Positions 1 to 7,330 of a stretch of 64,000 nt of DNA are shown in pieces (the first letter of the stretch is position 1; every line of letters starts with the position of its first letter). Below the pieces are notes generated by a model. It did not search any database. It was not told the DNA's origin and saw only the letters and a list, made by a program, of their open reading frames with translations. The stretch comes from Chryseobacterium endalhagicum. GTDB lineage: Bacteria; Bacteroidota; Bacteroidia; Flavobacteriales; Weeksellaceae. The stretch is from NCBI RefSeq assembly GCF_016745235.1, contig NZ_JAELVM010000002.1, positions 744,001 to 808,000 on the forward strand. Direction: 5' to 3'. The position numbers were made by a program, and so were the translations under genes.

Positions 1-2472
1 AACCGGAAGCTGGAATTCAGCCGGGTTGCCTGAAGTATTCGGAAGCCTTTGTTTTCCTACCCAGTTCAGAGTGGTATCAAAGCTCCAGAATCCTCCTTTA
101 TCGTTTTTATTCGTTGCATAGGCAAGATTCACAAAACCTCTGTGCTTGGCCATGAATGGAACCTCTCTTCTGCCGTCGATATAATCTGCCTGTACATCAT
201 AATATTTATAAGCCAGTCTTACATCAAAGTTCTTAAAAGGTGTAAAATCCCACTGGGTCTGGAAAGAGTTCGCAAAAGATTTTCCTTCCAGATTATAAAA
301 GGTAAGCTGCTGTGGTGAGCGGTCCAGATCCACAAGAACCTGATCCTGGAAATCTGTTCTGAAAAAATCTGCAACGATCGAAGATTTTCTTCCGAAAAGT
401 TTAAATTCCTGCTGTAAGCTGACTCCGTAATTCCATGCGATCTCCGGCTTTAAACCATAAATATCTCCACCGTTCTGAAGAATCTGAATGTTTCTGTTGG
501 ACGCAAAATACTGCTGGTTTTCTGCAAAAACATTGGCCGTTCTGAATCCTCTGCCCGCAGAAAGTCGTAAGATCGTCTGAGGCGTGAAATCATACTTGAA
601 ATTAACTCTCGGAGTAAACTGGGTTCCTGCAAGATTATGGAAATCTGCTCTGGCTCCTGCGACTAAAGTATATTTTAGCCCAGTCAATGTATATTCTGCA
701 AAAATACCCGGAACGATCTCGTTTCTCTTCATATCATCCGTTAAATATGTTTCCTCGTAGCCGTCATACAAAAAGCTGGCTCCGGCCTTGTACTTGTGAT
801 TGGTATTCCCGATGATGCTTTCAAAAATTAAATTGGAATAATACGTATGCTGTTTTCCGGCATAATTTCTCAGTCCGAAAAAGCTGTCCTGCTGGTGATA
901 CACATATTGGTTCATCCAGCCTAAGCTCTGATAAGGCTTTCCTTTAAATACGTATCCTGTTTTATTCCAAACCTGAAATCTGGAAATATCAATTCCGACA
1001 CCGTAGGCTCCCTGCTCGTCCTGAGGAAGCTTTTTATCAAAACCTATCTGTCCGGCCGTTCTCTCATCCTTGATGAAATTAATCCCGAAATGAGACCCGA
1101 ATCCTGATTTTTCAAGATCATTATAATTAAGGAGATAAGCTGCATTAATCTGCGTTCCTTTCGGTCGGTCCAGGAAAGTATCGTCATTCATATCCGTATC
1201 CCCGAAAGTTCCGTTTCCATGCAGTAAAAAGGTCTGAGACCATTTATCGTTGATAGGAGAGACGCTTGTGATATTGGCTTCCGCTCTTCCGTTGAAATCC
1301 GCAAAAATATTTAATGAAGTTTCAGGTTCTTTAGCGTTTTTCAGAAGCTCTGTATTGATTTGTCCTGTGATGCTTTCATAACCGTTGGTTACAGTACTTC
1401 CTCCTTTGGTCAGCTGAATGCTTTCAATCCATCTTCCGGGAATGAAATTCAGTCCATAGGCAGAAGCAAGACCTCTGATCTCCGGGAGAAGTTCCTTCGT
1501 TAAACTGGTGTATTTCTGATCCAGCCCCAGCATTTTAAGCTGTTTGGTTCCTGTAACGGCATTGCTGAAAGAAACATCTACCGTGGCATTCGTTTCAAAA
1601 CTTTCAGAAAGGTTGCAGCAGGCGGCTTTCAATAGTTCTTTTTTGTCGATATTAAAAACCAGTCCGGCTTCTTTTTTACTCAAAGCTGTGGCTGCTTTAG
1701 ATCCCGTAACCACTACGCCGTCGATCTTTTTTTCGTGCTGCTCATGGTTTTCGGAAGTGGCTTCAGGCTGGGTTTCCTGATGCTCTGCATGTTTTGTCTC
1801 TTCTGTAAAGTGAACTTTTGGATTCGCTTCTCCAAAAGCAATATCCCTGTCGTACAGGCAGCATCCGGGAAGGTTTTTGTAAACTGCATCCGTGGTTTTA
1901 TACTTTTCGTTGTCATGACCCGCATCGGCAATAGCTTTCAAAATTTTATCCGATGAGGTTTTTGAAGGATCAAAATGTAAGATAACGGTCTGCTTTTCTG
2001 CGCTCCATTCCGCTGAATCTGCGCCGGCTGTTTTGGCTGCTTTTTCAATTCTGGCTTTACAGGATTCGCAGTTGCCTTTTACATAAAACTCATTGTCTTT
2101 TCTTGCCTGATGCTGATGAGCTTCTGCCGCAGCAGGCTGAAGATCTCTTTCATAATGGCAGCATCCCGGAAGACCTTTGTAGGTTTCGTCGTTAGATTTA
2201 AATTTTTCGTTGTCGTGGCCAGCGTCTGCTACTTTCTTTAGGATTTCGTCTGTAGAAGTTTTAGAATCGGTTTCAAAAGTTAAAGTCTGCAGATCAACAG
2301 AATAAACCGCGGTTTTTGCGCCCGCTTTTTTGGCGGCAGTTTCTATTCTTGATTTACACATTTCACAGTTTCCTTTAACTTTAAACTGGTTCTTTGAAAG
2401 GTTTTGAGCTGATATAAACTGTACGGACAGAAGCATGAGACCAAGAATGATCTTGGAAATATATAATTTCAT
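1..2472 (-). CDS. TonB-dependent outer-membrane receptor with two N-terminal heavy-metal-associated domains (3' end cut by window edge)
   Basis: I translated this frame from the ATG at 2472 (MKLYISKII...) and it stays open to position 1, so at least 824 codons are present and the C-terminal barrel end is missing. A signal peptide (residues 1-22) is followed by two HMA-like domains: GNCEMC at 34-39 and GNCESC at 134-138 are CxxC metal sites, and each domain ends in an LPGCC motif (101-105 and 201-205). A His-rich linker (about 229-247) leads into the TonB plug, which contains AACCNLSESFETN near 283-295, and then beta-barrel sequence. Most receptors of this phylum carry a carboxypeptidase-like domain in this place; here the HMA pair replaces it. 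The plausible role is outer-membrane uptake or sensing of a soft metal such as copper; the substrate is inferred. It lies last in a same-strand run with 2543-2902 and 2921-3565. Confidence 0.9.
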   Translation of the reverse strand, partial: MKLYISKIILGLMLLSVQFISAQNLSKNQFKVKGNCEMCKSRIETAAKKAGAKTAVYSVDLQTLTFETDSKTSTDEILKKVADAGHDNEKFKSNDETYKGLPGCCHYERDLQPAAAEAHQHQARKDNEFYVKGNCESCKARIEKAAKTAGADSAEWSAEKQTVILHFDPSKTSSDKILKAIADAGHDNEKYKTTDAVYKNLPGCCLYDRDIAFGEANPKVHFTEETKHAEHQETQPEATSENHEQHEKKIDGVVVTGSKAATALSKKEAGLVFNIDKKELLKAACCNLSESFETNATVDVSFSNAVTGTKQLKMLGLDQKYTSLTKELLPEIRGLASAYGLNFIPGRWIESIQLTKGGSTVTNGYESITGQINTELLKNAKEPETSLNIFADFNGRAEANITSVSPINDKWSQTFLLHGNGTFGDTDMNDDTFLDRPKGTQINAAYLLNYNDLEKSGFGSHFGINFIKDERTAGQIGFDKKLPQDEQGAYGVGIDISRFQVWNKTGYVFKGKPYQSLGWMNQYVYHQQDSFFGLRNYAGKQHTYYSNLIFESIIGNTNHKYKAGASFLYDGYEETYLTDDMKRNEIVPGIFAEYTLTGLKYTLVAGARADFHNLAGTQFTPRVNFKYDFTPQTILRLSAGRGFRTANVFAENQQYFASNRNIQILQNGGDIYGLKPEIAWNYGVSLQQEFKLFGRKSSIVADFFRTDFQDQVLVDLDRSPQQLTFYNLEGKSFANSFQTQWDFTPFKNFDVRLAYKYYDVQADYIDGRREVPFMAKHRGFVNLAYATNKNDKGGFWSFDTTLNWVGKQRLPNTSGNPAEFQLPV

Positions 2473-2542
2473 TTTGTTTAAAAAAGTTTAGATTAATTAA
2501 AAACGGTCCATTACAATGTATAACGGACTCTGAATGTTGTTA

Positions 2543-2902
2543 TTAACCTATTTTAGGCGGCTGCCAGATTTCTTTTAAACGGTCTGAAAGATAAGGTGCT
2601 GAATATTGGAACTGAGGATTCTTACTGGCTTTGTAGTAAGACAGTTCCAGATGTAAATTCTTTGAAAACGGGGTTTCAATATAAGTAAAACAGGTGATGC
2701 AGGTCGAGCAGCAGTCGTCATTGCATGAAGAATGCTCTTTGTCATCCTTACTGTCTTTTGAGCTGTGATCTTTGCAGCAGTCACTTTTTTCTGACTTGGC
2801 TTTACAGCAGCTTTCCTGTGTGGTTTGTGAAAATAAGCTGTCTTTAGGAACTAAGAAAATTCCTAAACAAAATACAATGGCAAGTATATGAAACAGCTTC
2901 AT
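2543..2902 (-). CDS. Small Cys-rich exported protein, putative metal binding
   Basis: This 119-residue protein has an N-terminal hydrophobic signal (about 1-25). A central segment of roughly residues 31-72 is very rich in Cys, Lys, Asp and His, including repeated CC pairs and a CCSTCITC motif. The C-terminus ends in IWQPPKIG, which resembles small Bacteroidota proteins of the DUF6660 type found next to TonB receptors; that assignment is from memory and not firm. It starts 18 bp after the lipoprotein gene at 2921-3565 and ends 70 bp before the HMA-type TonB receptor, all on one strand, so co-transcription is likely. Periplasmic metal binding is inferred from composition and neighbours. No catalytic motif is visible. 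Confidence 0.75.
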   Translation of the reverse strand: MKLFHILAIVFCLGIFLVPKDSLFSQTTQESCCKAKSEKSDCCKDHSSKDSKDDKEHSSCNDDCCSTCITCFTYIETPFSKNLHLELSYYKASKNPQFQYSAPYLSDRLKEIWQPPKIG

Positions 2903-2920
2903 CTCTGCAAAAATACGAAA

Positions 2921-3565
2921 TTAAGACAAAGGATCACCAACTTTTAACGCACAATTGTGCCAAGGCTCTCCGTGAGCAGGGTTCAGTTTTGGTTTTGGAC
3001 CTGTTGGAGCTGGTGCTGTTACCGGACCGGGAACGTTTTGTGCACTTTGAACAGGTTGTGGTGCAGGTGCAGGTGCTGGTACTGGTTTGCTGTTTAAGGG
3101 CTGACCTACCGCAATATCACATCTGTGGCCGGGCTGTCCATGAGGAGGATTCATGCCGGGAGCGGTTTTAGCCGGCTGTCCGGTTTTATCGATCTGTATT
3201 TTTCCGGCTGACATGGAATTGGCATCTAGCTTAATGGCATTGTTCGGGTTTTGGCCGGGAGCCGTCTGGATAGCTGTAGGGCTTACATTAAGAGGCTGTC
3301 CCACCGGGATATCACATCTGTGGCCAGGCTGTCCGTGCGGAGGATTCTTTATTCCCGGAACATTAGAGGAAATAGGAGCCGGGGTTGGATTGGATTGTAC
3401 ACCTGCCTGTTCCATCAGAGCTGTTTTAGACGTTGTATTAACGGCCACATTGGGCTGCTGAACTCCGGCATCTTCTTTTAAATAAGTAGCTTTTTCGTCT
3501 TTATTACATGAAACAGCTAATAAGGAAATGGCAATAACGCCTAAGAATGTATTTTTCATATCCAA
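2921..3565 (-). CDS. Lipoprotein with three NPPHGQPGHRCD-type repeats
   Basis: The 214-residue product starts with a lipoprotein signal peptide with lipobox LAVSC (Cys20). The mature protein is Pro/Ala/Gln rich and holds three copies of a roughly 20-residue repeat at 74-93, 139-158 and 195-214. The first two are nearly identical (PHGQPGHRCDI, then VGQPLN). The third is diverged (HGEPWHNCAL, then VGDPLS) and forms the very C-terminus. Each copy keeps two His, one Cys and Pro-Gly turns, which suggests metal coordination; this is inference. Pro/Ala linkers separate the copies. The gene sits between a two-component system and a Cys-rich protein plus HMA-domain receptor on the same strand. I do not recognise a described function. 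An opposite-strand open frame across it is a shadow of its proline-rich codons. Confidence 0.85.
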   Translation of the reverse strand: MDMKNTFLGVIAISLLAVSCNKDEKATYLKEDAGVQQPNVAVNTTSKTALMEQAGVQSNPTPAPISSNVPGIKNPPHGQPGHRCDIPVGQPLNVSPTAIQTAPGQNPNNAIKLDANSMSAGKIQIDKTGQPAKTAPGMNPPHGQPGHRCDIAVGQPLNSKPVPAPAPAPQPVQSAQNVPGPVTAPAPTGPKPKLNPAHGEPWHNCALKVGDPLS

Positions 3566-3576
3566 TCGGTATGAAA

Positions 3577-3584
3577 CAAAATTA
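3577..3584 (-). promoter_or_regulatory. -7 box of the repeat-lipoprotein gene
   Basis: On the minus strand this reads TAATTTTG, matching the Bacteroidota -7 consensus TAnnTTTG, 12 bp before the lipoprotein ATG. It lies inside the right arm (as read on the minus strand) of a perfect inverted repeat. No TTTG was found at the usual -33 distance. Confidence 0.4.
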
Positions 3585-3615
3585 GCAAAACATTTTTAAT
3601 TGTTTTGCTAATTTT
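3578..3615 (-). terminator. 15-bp AT-rich inverted repeat after the response regulator gene
   Basis: The arms 3578-3592 and 3601-3615 are perfect reverse complements (AAAATTAGCAAAACA) with an 8-base loop. It lies 24 bp beyond the response regulator stop and overlaps the -7 box of the next gene, so it may act as a terminator, an operator, or both. Confidence 0.5.
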
Positions 3616-3638
3616 ATATTTATAATCAGTATTCGGGC

Positions 3639-4325
3639 TTAATTTTTAACCAAAAGTCTGAATCCTTCTCCGTGAACGTTGATAATTTCCAATCCTTCAT
3701 CGTCTTTTAACAGCTTACGAAGCTTCGCGATATACACGTCCATACTTCTTGCGGTAAAATAATTTTCTTTCTTCCAGATTTTTCTCAAAGCAAGATCTCT
3801 CGGCATGAAATCATTTCTGTGGATACAAAGAAGTTTTAACAGTTCGTTTTCTTTTGGAGAAAGTTTGTACTCTTTGTCACCTACTTTCAATTGTCTCAGC
3901 ATGGAATCGAAGAAGATATTGCTGATTTTGAACTGCTCCTGCTCTTCATTTTCCAAAGTAGAGCTTCTCTGCAGGATCGCTTTGATCTTATACAAAAGAA
4001 GTTCCGTATCAAACGGCTTGGTAATATAGTCGTCTGCACCCAGCTGATAACCTTTCAGGATATCTTCTCTCATATTTCTTGCGGTAAGGAATATGATAGG
4101 TGTGTTTTTATCGATTTTTTTTACGTCTTCCGCTAATGAAAATCCGTCTTTTTTTGGCATCATGACATCGAAAATGCAGATGTCAAATTCATTTTCTGTA
4201 AATTCTTTTAAACCCTGTTCCCCGTCTGTAGCAAGGGTTACCTCAAAGTTGTTGATCGTAAGATAATCCTTCAGCACTGCTCCAAAACTCTGATCGTCTT
4301 CTACTAATAATATTCTGTTGCTCAT
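3639..4325 (-). CDS. Two-component response regulator, OmpR family (RprY-like)
   Basis: This 228-residue protein has an N-terminal receiver domain with acidic residues D10-D11, phospho-acceptor Asp53 in IFDVMMP, Thr81 and Lys103 (TKPF). A C-terminal winged-helix DNA-binding domain spans about 130-225, ending in NVHGEGFRLL. The length and both domains are complete. The partner histidine kinase gene lies 102 bp upstream on the same strand. Overall it resembles the RprXY pair of Bacteroides, but orthology cannot be established by eye. Targets are unknown; the downstream same-strand lipoprotein, Cys-rich protein and HMA receptor are the natural candidates because of position. An AT-rich inverted repeat follows the stop codon. 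Confidence 0.93.
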   Translation of the reverse strand: MSNRILLVEDDQSFGAVLKDYLTINNFEVTLATDGEQGLKEFTENEFDICIFDVMMPKKDGFSLAEDVKKIDKNTPIIFLTARNMREDILKGYQLGADDYITKPFDTELLLYKIKAILQRSSTLENEEQEQFKISNIFFDSMLRQLKVGDKEYKLSPKENELLKLLCIHRNDFMPRDLALRKIWKKENYFTARSMDVYIAKLRKLLKDDEGLEIINVHGEGFRLLVKN

Positions 4326-4427
4326 GATTTTAATAATTAAAAATTAATGATTAAAAATTAAGAATGAACGTTCTCACTCTATCTTCCTATATTTTGTTAT
4401 TTGGTTTCTATATTTATCATTTATGAT

Positions 4428-5975
4428 TTAGCTCATCGGCAGCTTTATCGTAAACGTACTTCCATTATCCTTGTGGGAGTCTACAATAATCTGTCCTTTA
4501 TGCAGCTCTACAATTTTCTTCACGTAGGAAAGTCCCAGACCTTGGCCTTTTACATTGTGGATATTCCCGGTTTCTTCTCTGAAAAATTTTTCAAAGATCT
4601 TCGTCTTGTTCTGGGTTTCCATTCCCATTCCTTTATCAGAGATTTCGATGACATACAAATGTCCTTCATTTCTTGTCTTTACATGAATTTCCGGTGCTTC
4701 CGGTGAATATTTGTTGGCATTATCCAGTAAATTCACCAGCATATTGGAAATGTGGAATTCATCTATTTTAAAGGTGTAATGGGTCGCATTGAATTCCTGG
4801 GTCAGCGATCCGTTTCTCTGCTGTACAATAAGATTGAAAGATTCTGTCGTTCTTTTGATCAGCTCCCGTACATTAGTTTCCTTTAAAAACAGCTTCACTT
4901 CATTTCTTTCAAGCTTGGACATATTCAGAACATTTTCCACCTGCTTTTTCATTCTTAAATTTTCCTGCTTGATCAGCTCCGAATAATATTTTACCTTATC
5001 CGGGTTGGTGGCAATTTTGTCATTCGCCAAAGAATCCGTCGCCACAGAAATGGTCGCCAGAGGAGTTTTAAACTCGTGAGACATATTGTTGATAAAGTCT
5101 GTCTTCACTTCCGCCAGCTTTTTCTGCCTCATCATATAATTAATGGAAATAATATAAATTCCCAGAATGGTAAGCAATGAAAGGAATGTTCCCAGCAGCA
5201 TCGGCCAGTTGTTCATCGCCAGAGAGTATTCTTTTTTAGGAAAAACCAAAGCCAGACTATATAAAGTCCGGTCCTTTGTATCCGTGAAAAGAGGATAGGA
5301 ATACGTATTGTTGTCTTTTTTTTCTTTATATACTTTATTGACGACGCTTGTGAGCTTATTGTTCTTATCTGTAATTCCGTACCCGAATTTTGCAGAAATT
5401 CCTCTTATTTTTAATTCTTTTGCAATGACGGAATCCAGAATTTTATCATCTACTCTTTTTGTTATAGGTAAATTATTGCCATAAATTTTAGCAAATTCTT
5501 TTATGGTGTAATCTCCATTTTCAATATCGGTATTGATTTCTGTAGTCAGCTGTTCCGGCCTGGTAGTATCCCTTTTTACTTTGTAGGCAGCTTCATCGCT
5601 GTAAAGCGTGGTCCATTTTATAGAATCTCCTCTTTGGGAAATAGGAAGCTGTGTTTTTTCAATGATATTTTTAGAATAAATAATCTGTCTCTGGGTTCCG
5701 GAATCTTCAACCTGTTGAATGGTCGTCATAGAAGGCTGCTTACTGTTCGCAATAATATTATTCCGGAAATTTTTATTGTTTTCATTCATGTATTTTTCCA
5801 CCTCAATTTCTGAAACACTTTTAGCGGTGCTTTCCAGGGCAGTATATACTTTGTTTGAAAAATCTTGTTCAAGAGCTCCGTAATAACCCTTCAGCCAATA
5901 AAATTGGAGCGTCACAAAAACAATCAGTGAGATTGTCATAAACACCGAAATTATTGGGATGAATTTATTATTCAT
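4428..5975 (-). CDS. Sensor histidine kinase (RprX-like)
   Basis: The product is 515 residues. TM1 is at about 7-28 and TM2 at about 259-280, enclosing a periplasmic sensor region of roughly 230 residues with no family I recognise. The dimerisation/phospho-acceptor motif NNMSHEFKTPLATI places the phosphorylated His at 300. The ATPase domain shows an N box (NLLDNANKYS), a G1 box (DKGMGME) and a G2 region (GQGLGLSYVKKI). It would sense an extracytoplasmic signal and phosphorylate the regulator encoded 102 bp downstream. The gene is complete and the kinase residues are intact. The signal is unknown. Confidence 0.93.
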   Translation of the reverse strand: MNNKFIPIISVFMTISLIVFVTLQFYWLKGYYGALEQDFSNKVYTALESTAKSVSEIEVEKYMNENNKNFRNNIIANSKQPSMTTIQQVEDSGTQRQIIYSKNIIEKTQLPISQRGDSIKWTTLYSDEAAYKVKRDTTRPEQLTTEINTDIENGDYTIKEFAKIYGNNLPITKRVDDKILDSVIAKELKIRGISAKFGYGITDKNNKLTSVVNKVYKEKKDNNTYSYPLFTDTKDRTLYSLALVFPKKEYSLAMNNWPMLLGTFLSLLTILGIYIISINYMMRQKKLAEVKTDFINNMSHEFKTPLATISVATDSLANDKIATNPDKVKYYSELIKQENLRMKKQVENVLNMSKLERNEVKLFLKETNVRELIKRTTESFNLIVQQRNGSLTQEFNATHYTFKIDEFHISNMLVNLLDNANKYSPEAPEIHVKTRNEGHLYVIEISDKGMGMETQNKTKIFEKFFREETGNIHNVKGQGLGLSYVKKIVELHKGQIIVDSHKDNGSTFTIKLPMS

Positions 5976-6177: not shown

Positions 6178-6660
6178 ATGGAATCTAATATCGTTTTCAA
6201 CAAAGATTTTGATGCAAGCACAGTGTATGTCATGAAAATTTATGATGCTGATGTCTCAAAAGTGTGGGATTATTTTACCAAATCTGAATTATTGGATCAA
6301 TGGTGGGCTCCGAAGCCGTGGAAATGTGAAACAGTGAAGCAGGATTTTAGCGAAGGCGGAATCTGGCACTATGCCATGGTAGGTCCTGACGGCGAAAAAA
6401 TGTATGGACAGGTAACCTATGGCGAGATCATGGAGCACCGCAGCTTCGACGGGGTAGATGCTTTTTGTGATGAAAAAGGGGATATCAATGAAGATTTTGC
6501 GCAGGCTAAATGGTTATTCGGGTTTACAGGAGTGGAAGAGGGAACAAAGTTGACCATTAATATTCACTTTCCTGATCCGGAATCTATGAAGAAGCAGTTG
6601 GAGATGGGCTTTGAAGAGGGGTTCAAGATGGGACTGAGCCAGCTGGAGGATTTGATTTGA
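6178..6660 (+). CDS. SRPBCC / AHSA1-like START-fold protein
   Basis: This 160-residue cytoplasmic protein lacks a signal peptide. It has the pattern of the activator-of-Hsp90-ATPase-homologue family: an early helix with VWDYFTKSELLDQWWAP, a central GGIWHYAMVGPDGEKMYG hairpin and a C-terminal long helix. Family members bind hydrophobic ligands or have unknown roles, so no specific function can be assigned. It is divergent from the histidine kinase and convergent with the gene ending at 6980. A nested inverted repeat begins three bases after its stop codon. Confidence 0.85.
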   Translation: MESNIVFNKDFDASTVYVMKIYDADVSKVWDYFTKSELLDQWWAPKPWKCETVKQDFSEGGIWHYAMVGPDGEKMYGQVTYGEIMEHRSFDGVDAFCDEKGDINEDFAQAKWLFGFTGVEEGTKLTINIHFPDPESMKKQLEMGFEEGFKMGLSQLEDLI

Positions 6661-6662
6661 TA

Positions 6663-6956
6663 ATTTGCTGATGAGTTAATGGGTTGATGTGGTGATGTGA
6701 TGATTCGTTGATTTGCCAATTAGATGATGTGATAGTTTGTTGATTCTAAAGTGTTTTTTAGGTTTTGGCTAAAGCCTCATCGAGGTTTCACAAAAAAAAG
6801 ACGGGCTTTAGCCCGTCCCTATTGAATTTTATATGCGTATGTGCATTTGAAATTAATAATATGATTGCTCTGAGTGATCGTTCCTGAGAAGCCCTAGATT
6901 TGTACCAATGCACATCATCCTAATTACCACATCAACCCATTAACTCATCAGCAAAT
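6663..6956. repeat. Nested inverted repeat between two convergent genes
   Basis: The outer arms 6663-6693 and 6926-6956 are perfect 31-bp reverse complements built from TGATG/CATCA-like words. Inside lie GGCTAAAGCC (6767-6776) and the palindromic hairpin ACGGGCTTTAGCCCGT (6801-6816). The 319-bp gap between the convergent genes contains no plausible coding frame. It could be a two-way terminator or a REP/MITE-like element. Confidence 0.7.
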
Positions 6957-6979
6957 CATCGCATCAACCCATCATCACA

Positions 6980-7330
6980 TCAAATCAACTCTTCCTCCTG
7001 AAAATACTGAATAATCGCTTTTTTCATCAGAAGAGACTGTTCGTTGGGTCTTAATTCCGGAAGTTCTTCCAGTTTGTCATATTGTGGCCATCCGTCTTCG
7101 TAGTGGGTAAATTTATAGTACCCAAAAGGTTCCAGCAGTCTGCATACCGCGATGTGGATCAAATTTACTTTGTCTTCTTTTGTATATTTTTGTTGGCCGC
7201 TTCCTAGTTCCTGTAGTCCGATCAGAAATAAAAGGGTTTCAATCGGAGGATTTTTTTCGGTGTCGAAATTATCTATAAAGAACTGTTCTATTTTTTGCCA
7301 GTAATCGGACTCGTTCATAATGTTTGTCAT
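6980..7330 (-). CDS. Conserved hypothetical 116-residue protein
   Basis: The protein is soluble and acidic, with no signal peptide or TM helix and no motif I recognise. It is predicted mostly helical, starts MTNIMNESDYWQKIEQFF and ends FQEEELI. Its start codon overlaps the stop of the upstream small membrane protein (ATGA, 7327-7330), which indicates translational coupling. The 3' end faces the nested inverted repeat. Alternative starts exist (Met5), but the coupling supports the first ATG. Confidence 0.75.
   Translation of the reverse strand: MTNIMNESDYWQKIEQFFIDNFDTEKNPPIETLLFLIGLQELGSGQQKYTKEDKVNLIHIAVCRLLEPFGYYKFTHYEDGWPQYDKLEELPELRPNEQSLLMKKAIIQYFQEEELI

Follow-up and report, generated by a model that had tools for sequence, protein, structure and literature searches.

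A putative soft-metal uptake cassette beside an RprXY-like two-component system in Chryseobacterium endalhagicum

Closest described systems

The passage of copper across the outer membrane of Bacteroidota is, to our knowledge, poorly described. We analyzed a stretch of 64,000 nucleotides (G000:C3:744001-808000, hereafter the window) from the 4.93 Mb genome of Chryseobacterium endalhagicum, which holds consecutive genes for a sensor histidine kinase (HK), an OmpR-type response regulator (RR), a repeat lipoprotein (LIP), a Cys-rich exported protein (CYS), and a TonB-dependent receptor with two N-terminal HMA domains (REC). We favor, with moderate confidence, a reading in which these genes make up two adjacent units: an RprXY-like HK-RR system, and a cassette of LIP, CYS and REC for the uptake of a soft metal, most likely copper.

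REC shares with OprC, the copper receptor of Pseudomonas aeruginosa, that it is a TonB-dependent receptor proposed for copper. However, neither part of the OprC motif CxxxM/HxM (as given in PMC11213822) is found in REC, which instead has N-terminal HMA domains and a pair of cysteines in its plug, and on the motif alone we rejected an OprC-type receptor. For the flavobacterium Bizionia argentinensis, a survey of copper genes gives an OprC-like receptor as the route for copper and counts HMA proteins among the chaperones (PMC11213822); the LIP-CYS-REC cassette was not encountered in the passages of that survey consulted, nor did we find a description of it in the passages and abstracts of the other literature searched. 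The neighborhood of REC, its barrel with the plug Cys pair, and the Cys-rich protein upstream resemble an arrangement of HYC_CC_PP protein, receptor and HMA domain in other Bacteroidota, for which our literature searches found no publication. The window differs from this arrangement in that the receptor carries two fused copies of the HMA domain, CYS does not match HYC_CC_PP, and LIP is added.

For the two-component system the comparison is with RprXY of Bacteroides fragilis. The rprXY genes are reported to be essential in B. fragilis (PMC4072883), and RprY of Porphyromonas gingivalis is linked to sodium and oxidative stress (PMC3646045). A term search of the P. gingivalis text gave no occurrence of 'copper'.

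Gene order and linkage

On the minus strand, from position 5975 downward, the genes encode HK (4428..5975), RR (3639..4325), LIP (2921..3559), CYS (2543..2902) and REC (1..2472), and no other sizeable gene lies between them. REC is cut by the left edge of the window, with 824 of its 895 residues inside and the end of the gene at C3:743785, 216 bases outside; no open reading frame of at least 90 codons is present between the end of REC and a plus-strand gene. An initial annotation of this DNA had described the five genes as consecutive on the minus strand, which we confirm, and the order is kept in 61 of the best 80 LIP-homologue loci. These 80 were taken from at least 460 loci and therefore lean to Chryseobacterium. 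The 61 (L034-L092, L100 and L107, with L053 represented by broken hits only and L090 truncated by a contig end) come from Chryseobacterium, Kaistella and one Weeksellaceae metagenome-assembled genome; the other 19, mostly from Flavobacterium, have LIP, with neither CYS nor REC in their stretch. At 83-85% identity, LIPs from Chryseobacterium lathyri, C. oleae and relatives are the nearest among the named records searched. Across 58 loci (L034-L091) RR is 96-100% identical to that of the window and LIP 63% identical on average, and the upstream genes POP, ORF116 and SRPBCC are each retained in 55 of these 58.

The positions of LIP, REC and RR were compared in a sample of 120 genomes of the family, of which 45 have LIP, 109 have REC and 117 have relatives of RR (E <= 1e-80). 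In 36 of the 45 LIP-holding genomes LIP and REC share a strand and are no more than 3 kb apart, and they occur in two arrangements, with LIP upstream of REC in 23 and downstream in 13. In the latter 13 genomes RR is at least 88 kb distant or on another contig. LIP and REC are thus linked there without a link to the regulator.

The regulator itself behaves differently. The initial annotation had named conserved adjacency of the regulators to the envelope genes as a check on its proposal, and RR and REC are within 4 kb of each other in only 25 of the 107 family genomes holding both. These 25 cover eight genera and include all 12 sampled genomes of the genus of the window. In the other 82 the two genes are apart, either on the same contig at a distance of at least 25 kb (42 genomes) or on different contigs (40 genomes, the division having been made by hand); for these 40, fragmented draft assemblies could mask adjacency. 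Outside the family, a hand comparison found RR next to REC in none of 17 genomes holding both, the genes being on the same contig at least 37 kb apart in four and on different contigs in 13. At the level of the phylum, the LIP family is present in 23 of 296 genomes at E <= 0.001, with G315 a weak member (7.5e-4). REC is also found in 21 of these 23, which are mostly from one genus, and relatedness explains much of this association.

The lipoprotein, Cys-rich protein and receptor

The initial annotation had also noted that three successive products carry different Cys/His motifs, and the comparison supports this, the HMA domains included. LIP (212 residues) has a lipobox, LLAVSC, identified by eye (lipobox Cys18), and three 19-residue H-x4-H-x-C units separated by Pro/Ala-rich linkers: residues 72-90 (3290..3346), 137-155 (3095..3151) and 193-211 (2927..2983), all on the minus strand. 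Three units are present in all 81 LIPs compared (that of the window and those of the best 80 loci), and 487 of the 498 His residues in these proteins fall inside units and 11 outside. The pattern used for the unit search itself forces H4, G5, H9 and C11; among the positions that it leaves free, N1, P2, G16 and L19 are identical in 243 of 243 units and V15 in 242. Most invariant columns of a 16-row LIP alignment are likewise within units, and in the predicted structure the units are ordered (pLDDT blocks of 72-92) and the linkers barely so (40-53).

The LIP of the window has no match in Pfam, where other members give weak and scattered matches (best E 0.0022), and in NCBIfam its only match is to a signal-peptide region (12.8 bits against a cutoff of 50). 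It has no match among PDB sequences, and a comparison with PDB folds returned a single meaningless match (E 9.8). Judged by its sequence, LIP is a repeat lipoprotein of units that look metal-binding and fall outside the catalogued families of the libraries searched; a single unit could be tested as a peptide. It resembles the SilE/PcoE metal sponges, which are also exported, of low predicted order, and built with repeated short motifs of metal-binding appearance. However, LIP is lipid-anchored and has the H-x4-H-x-C unit, and the likeness would be one of working, not of sequence relation.

An MNIO enzyme (PF05114, 111 bits) is encoded elsewhere in the genome, at G000:C4:154204-154896, on a different contig from LIP. 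We considered modification of the LIP cysteines by an MNIO enzyme and found no evidence for it.

CYS consists of 119 residues, ten of them Cys, and ends in IWQPPK. It does not match the HYC_CC_PP model (NF047658, cutoff 28 bits), and a plasmid search with CYS gave no match. A small Cys-rich exported protein is nevertheless a regular component: by eye, one is encoded upstream of REC, or upstream of a preceding HMA gene, in 19 of 20 family regions. Sixteen of these 19 are matched by BLAST to the CYS of the window, one (L126) is a HYC_CC_PP protein, and two are Cys-rich and unmatched; in L127 the slot is empty. The same slot is filled in 17 of 20 regions from distant Bacteroidota (by eye, and partly without a family match), and five of the six proteins scanned among these 17 exceed the HYC_CC_PP cutoff. 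Taken individually, the cutoff is passed by slot proteins of L159 (132.7 bits), L163 (119.4), L126 (64.7), L176 (36.4), L171 (34.9) and L170 (32.5), and no match was obtained for those of L114, L120, L129, L131 and L177.

REC matches the barrel family PF00593 (79.6 bits, cutoff 27), and its plug gives a match to PF07715 below the cutoff (16.5 against 23.9). Its HMA match (PF00403, 44.1 bits, cutoff 24.8) covers two stretches, each with a CxxC: the first HMA domain, at approximately residues 26-90 (2203..2397, limits taken from an orthologue model), has it in GNCEMC, and the second, at residues 134-187 (1912..2073), in GNCESC. A structural model of the orthologue from C. lathyri (L034) contains two beta-alpha-beta-beta-alpha domains with pLDDT blocks mostly of 70-86. 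In the receptor alignment a vicinal pair of cysteines in the plug, Cys285-Cys286 (1615..1620), and His418 (1219..1221) are present in all 100 aligned receptors, including all 20 distant ones; the pair lies in KAACCNLSESFETN in the window and in close variants elsewhere. We regard the conserved pair and His418 as the best pointer to a soft metal as the cargo. REC is a testable candidate for a copper receptor, and its signature is a KAACCNLSESFETN-like Cys pair, found in every aligned receptor.

An HMA domain is found in 16 of the 20 distant regions, as a separate gene in 14 (by eye), and three of the 20 distant receptors have it fused. REC thus represents a fused variant of a broader receptor-HMA arrangement. 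The cassette is of a type made up of a small Cys-rich exported protein, a TonB-dependent receptor and HMA, with HMA in this case duplicated and joined to the N terminus of REC.

Other proteins were noted in some of these regions. At L165:7646-8380 an HMA-MauE fusion is encoded, with the HYC-like gene on one side and the receptor on the other. At L166:1691-4849 an AraC-like protein, whose matches are below cutoffs and whose N terminus has a metal-like CxxC motif, adjoins a copper ATPase and a receptor-HMA pair. A TlpA/ResA-like thioredoxin-fold protein is found inside the cassette at L172:4076-4564 (by model) and beside it at L167:4948-5427 (by eye).

The two-component system and the spacers

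HK contains HisKA and HATPase_c domains, and its periplasmic domain was taken as residues 31-254. The best family model for RR is RprY (NF051850), with 300.9 bits against a curated cutoff of 370 that it does not reach. In a search of the whole genome RR is the top match to this model at 301.3 bits, followed by a protein at 240.0. The comparison with RprXY covers the regulator. At E <= 1e-80 the model detects members in 21 of the 24 genomes sampled from the class and in 30 of the 99 from the phylum; the cutoff is exceeded in none of these 99 and in one control genome (Bacteroides).

CusRS/CopRS-type sensor domains are expected to have periplasmic His, Met or Cys metal ligands. The periplasmic sensor domain of HK has no Cys and no His. 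Cys is absent from the sensor domains of all 64 kinases compared, that of the window included, and of the Met residues in the window's domain only the membrane-near Met254 is conserved. Against the models cztS_silS_copS and cztR_silR_copR, HK and RR score 102.5 (cutoff 292.55) and 135.1 bits (cutoff 279.2), respectively. Conserved linkage to the metal genes under its control would also be expected of a CusRS/CopRS-type system, and here it is seen in 25 of 107 family genomes, although it is kept in the genus of the window. The initial annotation had proposed a metal module with its own sensor; the LIP, CYS and REC envelope set does recur, but sensor-domain composition and linkage led us to reject the two-component system as a dedicated metal sensor. 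We read HK and RR as the form that an RprXY-like envelope system takes in Chryseobacterium; the system occurs with or without adjoining metal genes, and HK is probably a neighbor of the metal cassette and not part of it. The case also cautions that neighboring metal genes alone do not make a two-component system a metal sensor.

In L163:2903-4665, on the same strand downstream of REC/HMA, are a kinase (29% identical to that of the window) and a 140-residue receiver protein. The cassette is accompanied there by a two-component pair other than HK-RR.

The spacers around LIP and CYS were analyzed for hairpins in 55 of 62 RR-LIP spacers (those shorter than 140 bases) and in 61 CYS-REC spacers, those of the window included. 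A hairpin of at least ten pairs is present in 54 of the 55 RR-LIP spacers, compared with a mean of 1.7 and a maximum of 4 in mononucleotide shuffles. In the window this hairpin (3578..3615, minus strand) has a folding energy of -19.5 kcal/mol (z -4.78), and its 27-base pattern, allowing up to two mismatches, has no second copy in the genome. The hairpin is nearly invariant in the genus, the variation consisting of G-U pairs or, in L086, of changes in both arms. It contains TAATTTTG, a fit to TAnnTTTG, the box of Bacteroidota promoters; GCTAATTTTG is present in 53 of the 55 spacers and TAnnTTTG in all 55.

We infer that the hairpin is the terminator of the HK-RR unit overlapping the promoter of the LIP unit, although it may instead be an operator or a regulatory RNA element. 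The same-strand run in the initial annotation is upheld as to strand and consecutive order, but with a strong hairpin between RR and LIP one run need not be one transcript. The CYS-REC spacer has a weaker candidate, a hairpin followed by a T-run (2506..2528, minus strand; z -2.16) that could be an attenuator or a terminator. Hairpins of at least seven pairs occur in 49 of the 61 CYS-REC spacers compared with a mean of 28.7 in shuffles, a moderate signal.

Cargo, alternatives and neighboring features

In the two-unit reading, LIP, attached to the envelope through flexible linkers, and CYS would hold the metal, REC would pass it through the barrel and past the plug Cys pair in a TonB-driven step, and the HMA domains in the periplasm would take it up for hand-over. 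That the metal is copper is suggested by L166, where the gene directly upstream of REC and HMA encodes a copper ATPase (TIGR01511, 577 bits against a cutoff of 397). A bolder form of the proposal, that this is a dedicated copper importer of Bacteroidota with a new architecture, in which the LIP units are autonomous metal sites strung like beads and feeding REC and the Cys pair gates transfer onto the fused HMA domains, is in our estimate less likely than not.

Several observations weigh against the two-unit reading. LIP is distant from REC in 9 of the 45 LIP-holding family genomes, and the compared Flavobacterium genomes with both genes on one contig have them more than 100 kb apart (by eye); LIP may thus function on its own. 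Other genomes of the family have LIPs with two units. In a profile-profile comparison CYS aligns with HYC_CC_PP (51.6%) over just 12 columns of signal peptide. The terminator scan flagged the RR-LIP hairpin for the plus strand only; on the minus strand the T-rich stretch forms part of the hairpin stem. The orthologue model of the receptor, of low quality beyond its HMA domains (mean pLDDT 45.2), does not locate the Cys pair in the pore. The HMA domains fit MerP models as well as CopZ models, with every score below the cutoffs, and a copper transporter lies beside REC in one of 20 distant regions (L166), the neighbors having been partly scanned. The metal reading as a whole is drawn from sequence.

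One alternative keeps the two-component system in charge: HK-RR would control the cassette in this clade, the adjacency being selected, with HK sensing a copper-altered state of the envelope and not the metal. The five-gene order in 61 of the best 80 loci, the near-invariant spacer hairpin in the genus, and the adjacency of RR and REC across eight genera are consistent with such control, and in L120 and L121 RR, the Cys-rich protein and REC are adjacent with no LIP detected. Yet gene order shared in the genus says little about control, since POP, ORF116 and SRPBCC are retained there as well, and the sensor domain without Cys or His and the hairpin between the two units both speak against it. 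Moreover, although RR and REC are each found in nearly all genomes of the family, they are separated in 82 of 107 genomes, 40 of these 82 having them on different draft contigs. We consider this alternative unlikely.

Other alternatives concern the cargo. REC might import a metal chelate, chalkophore- or siderophore-like, from which the Cys and HMA parts strip the metal afterwards. The top solved relatives of the barrel by sequence are ferric enterobactin receptors and REC lacks the OprC copper motif, both of which agree with a chelate, but the similarity is weak (best E 1.7e-4) and does not fix the ligand. No biosynthetic or reductase genes were recognized by eye in the regions read, where most neighbors are unscanned, and we think an imported chelate improbable. 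We are similarly doubtful that the cassette serves another soft metal (Zn, Ag or Hg), or detoxification and not supply. The equal, sub-cutoff matches of the HMA domains to MerP and CopZ leave room for another metal, as does a weak match of the L120 CYS homologue to CzcI (19 bits against a cutoff of 100); mer or czc genes were not recognized by eye, with no systematic scan made, and the copper ATPase is the sole metal transporter recognized next to the receptor. TonB-dependent receptors generally function in import, which argues against detoxification. We retain, at the confidence given above, uptake of a soft metal, most likely copper, by LIP, CYS and REC next to an RprXY-like system.

Two further features were seen in the regions examined. 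Beyond REC on the opposite strand, L003:804-5414 encodes a tandem pair of secreted paralogues, which by eye look like GH18 (chitinase-like) proteins with a LamG-like portion and a C terminus of the sorting type. In the window, beside an SRPBCC-like gene (6178-6660), positions 6652-6990 include a stretch of repeats with an 8-base period (6922-6990). They also include an inverted repeat of 45 nt (6652-6696 and 6923-6967, 91% complementary), with a hairpin and T-run between the arms (by eye). This region may represent a small element, either mobile or expanded.

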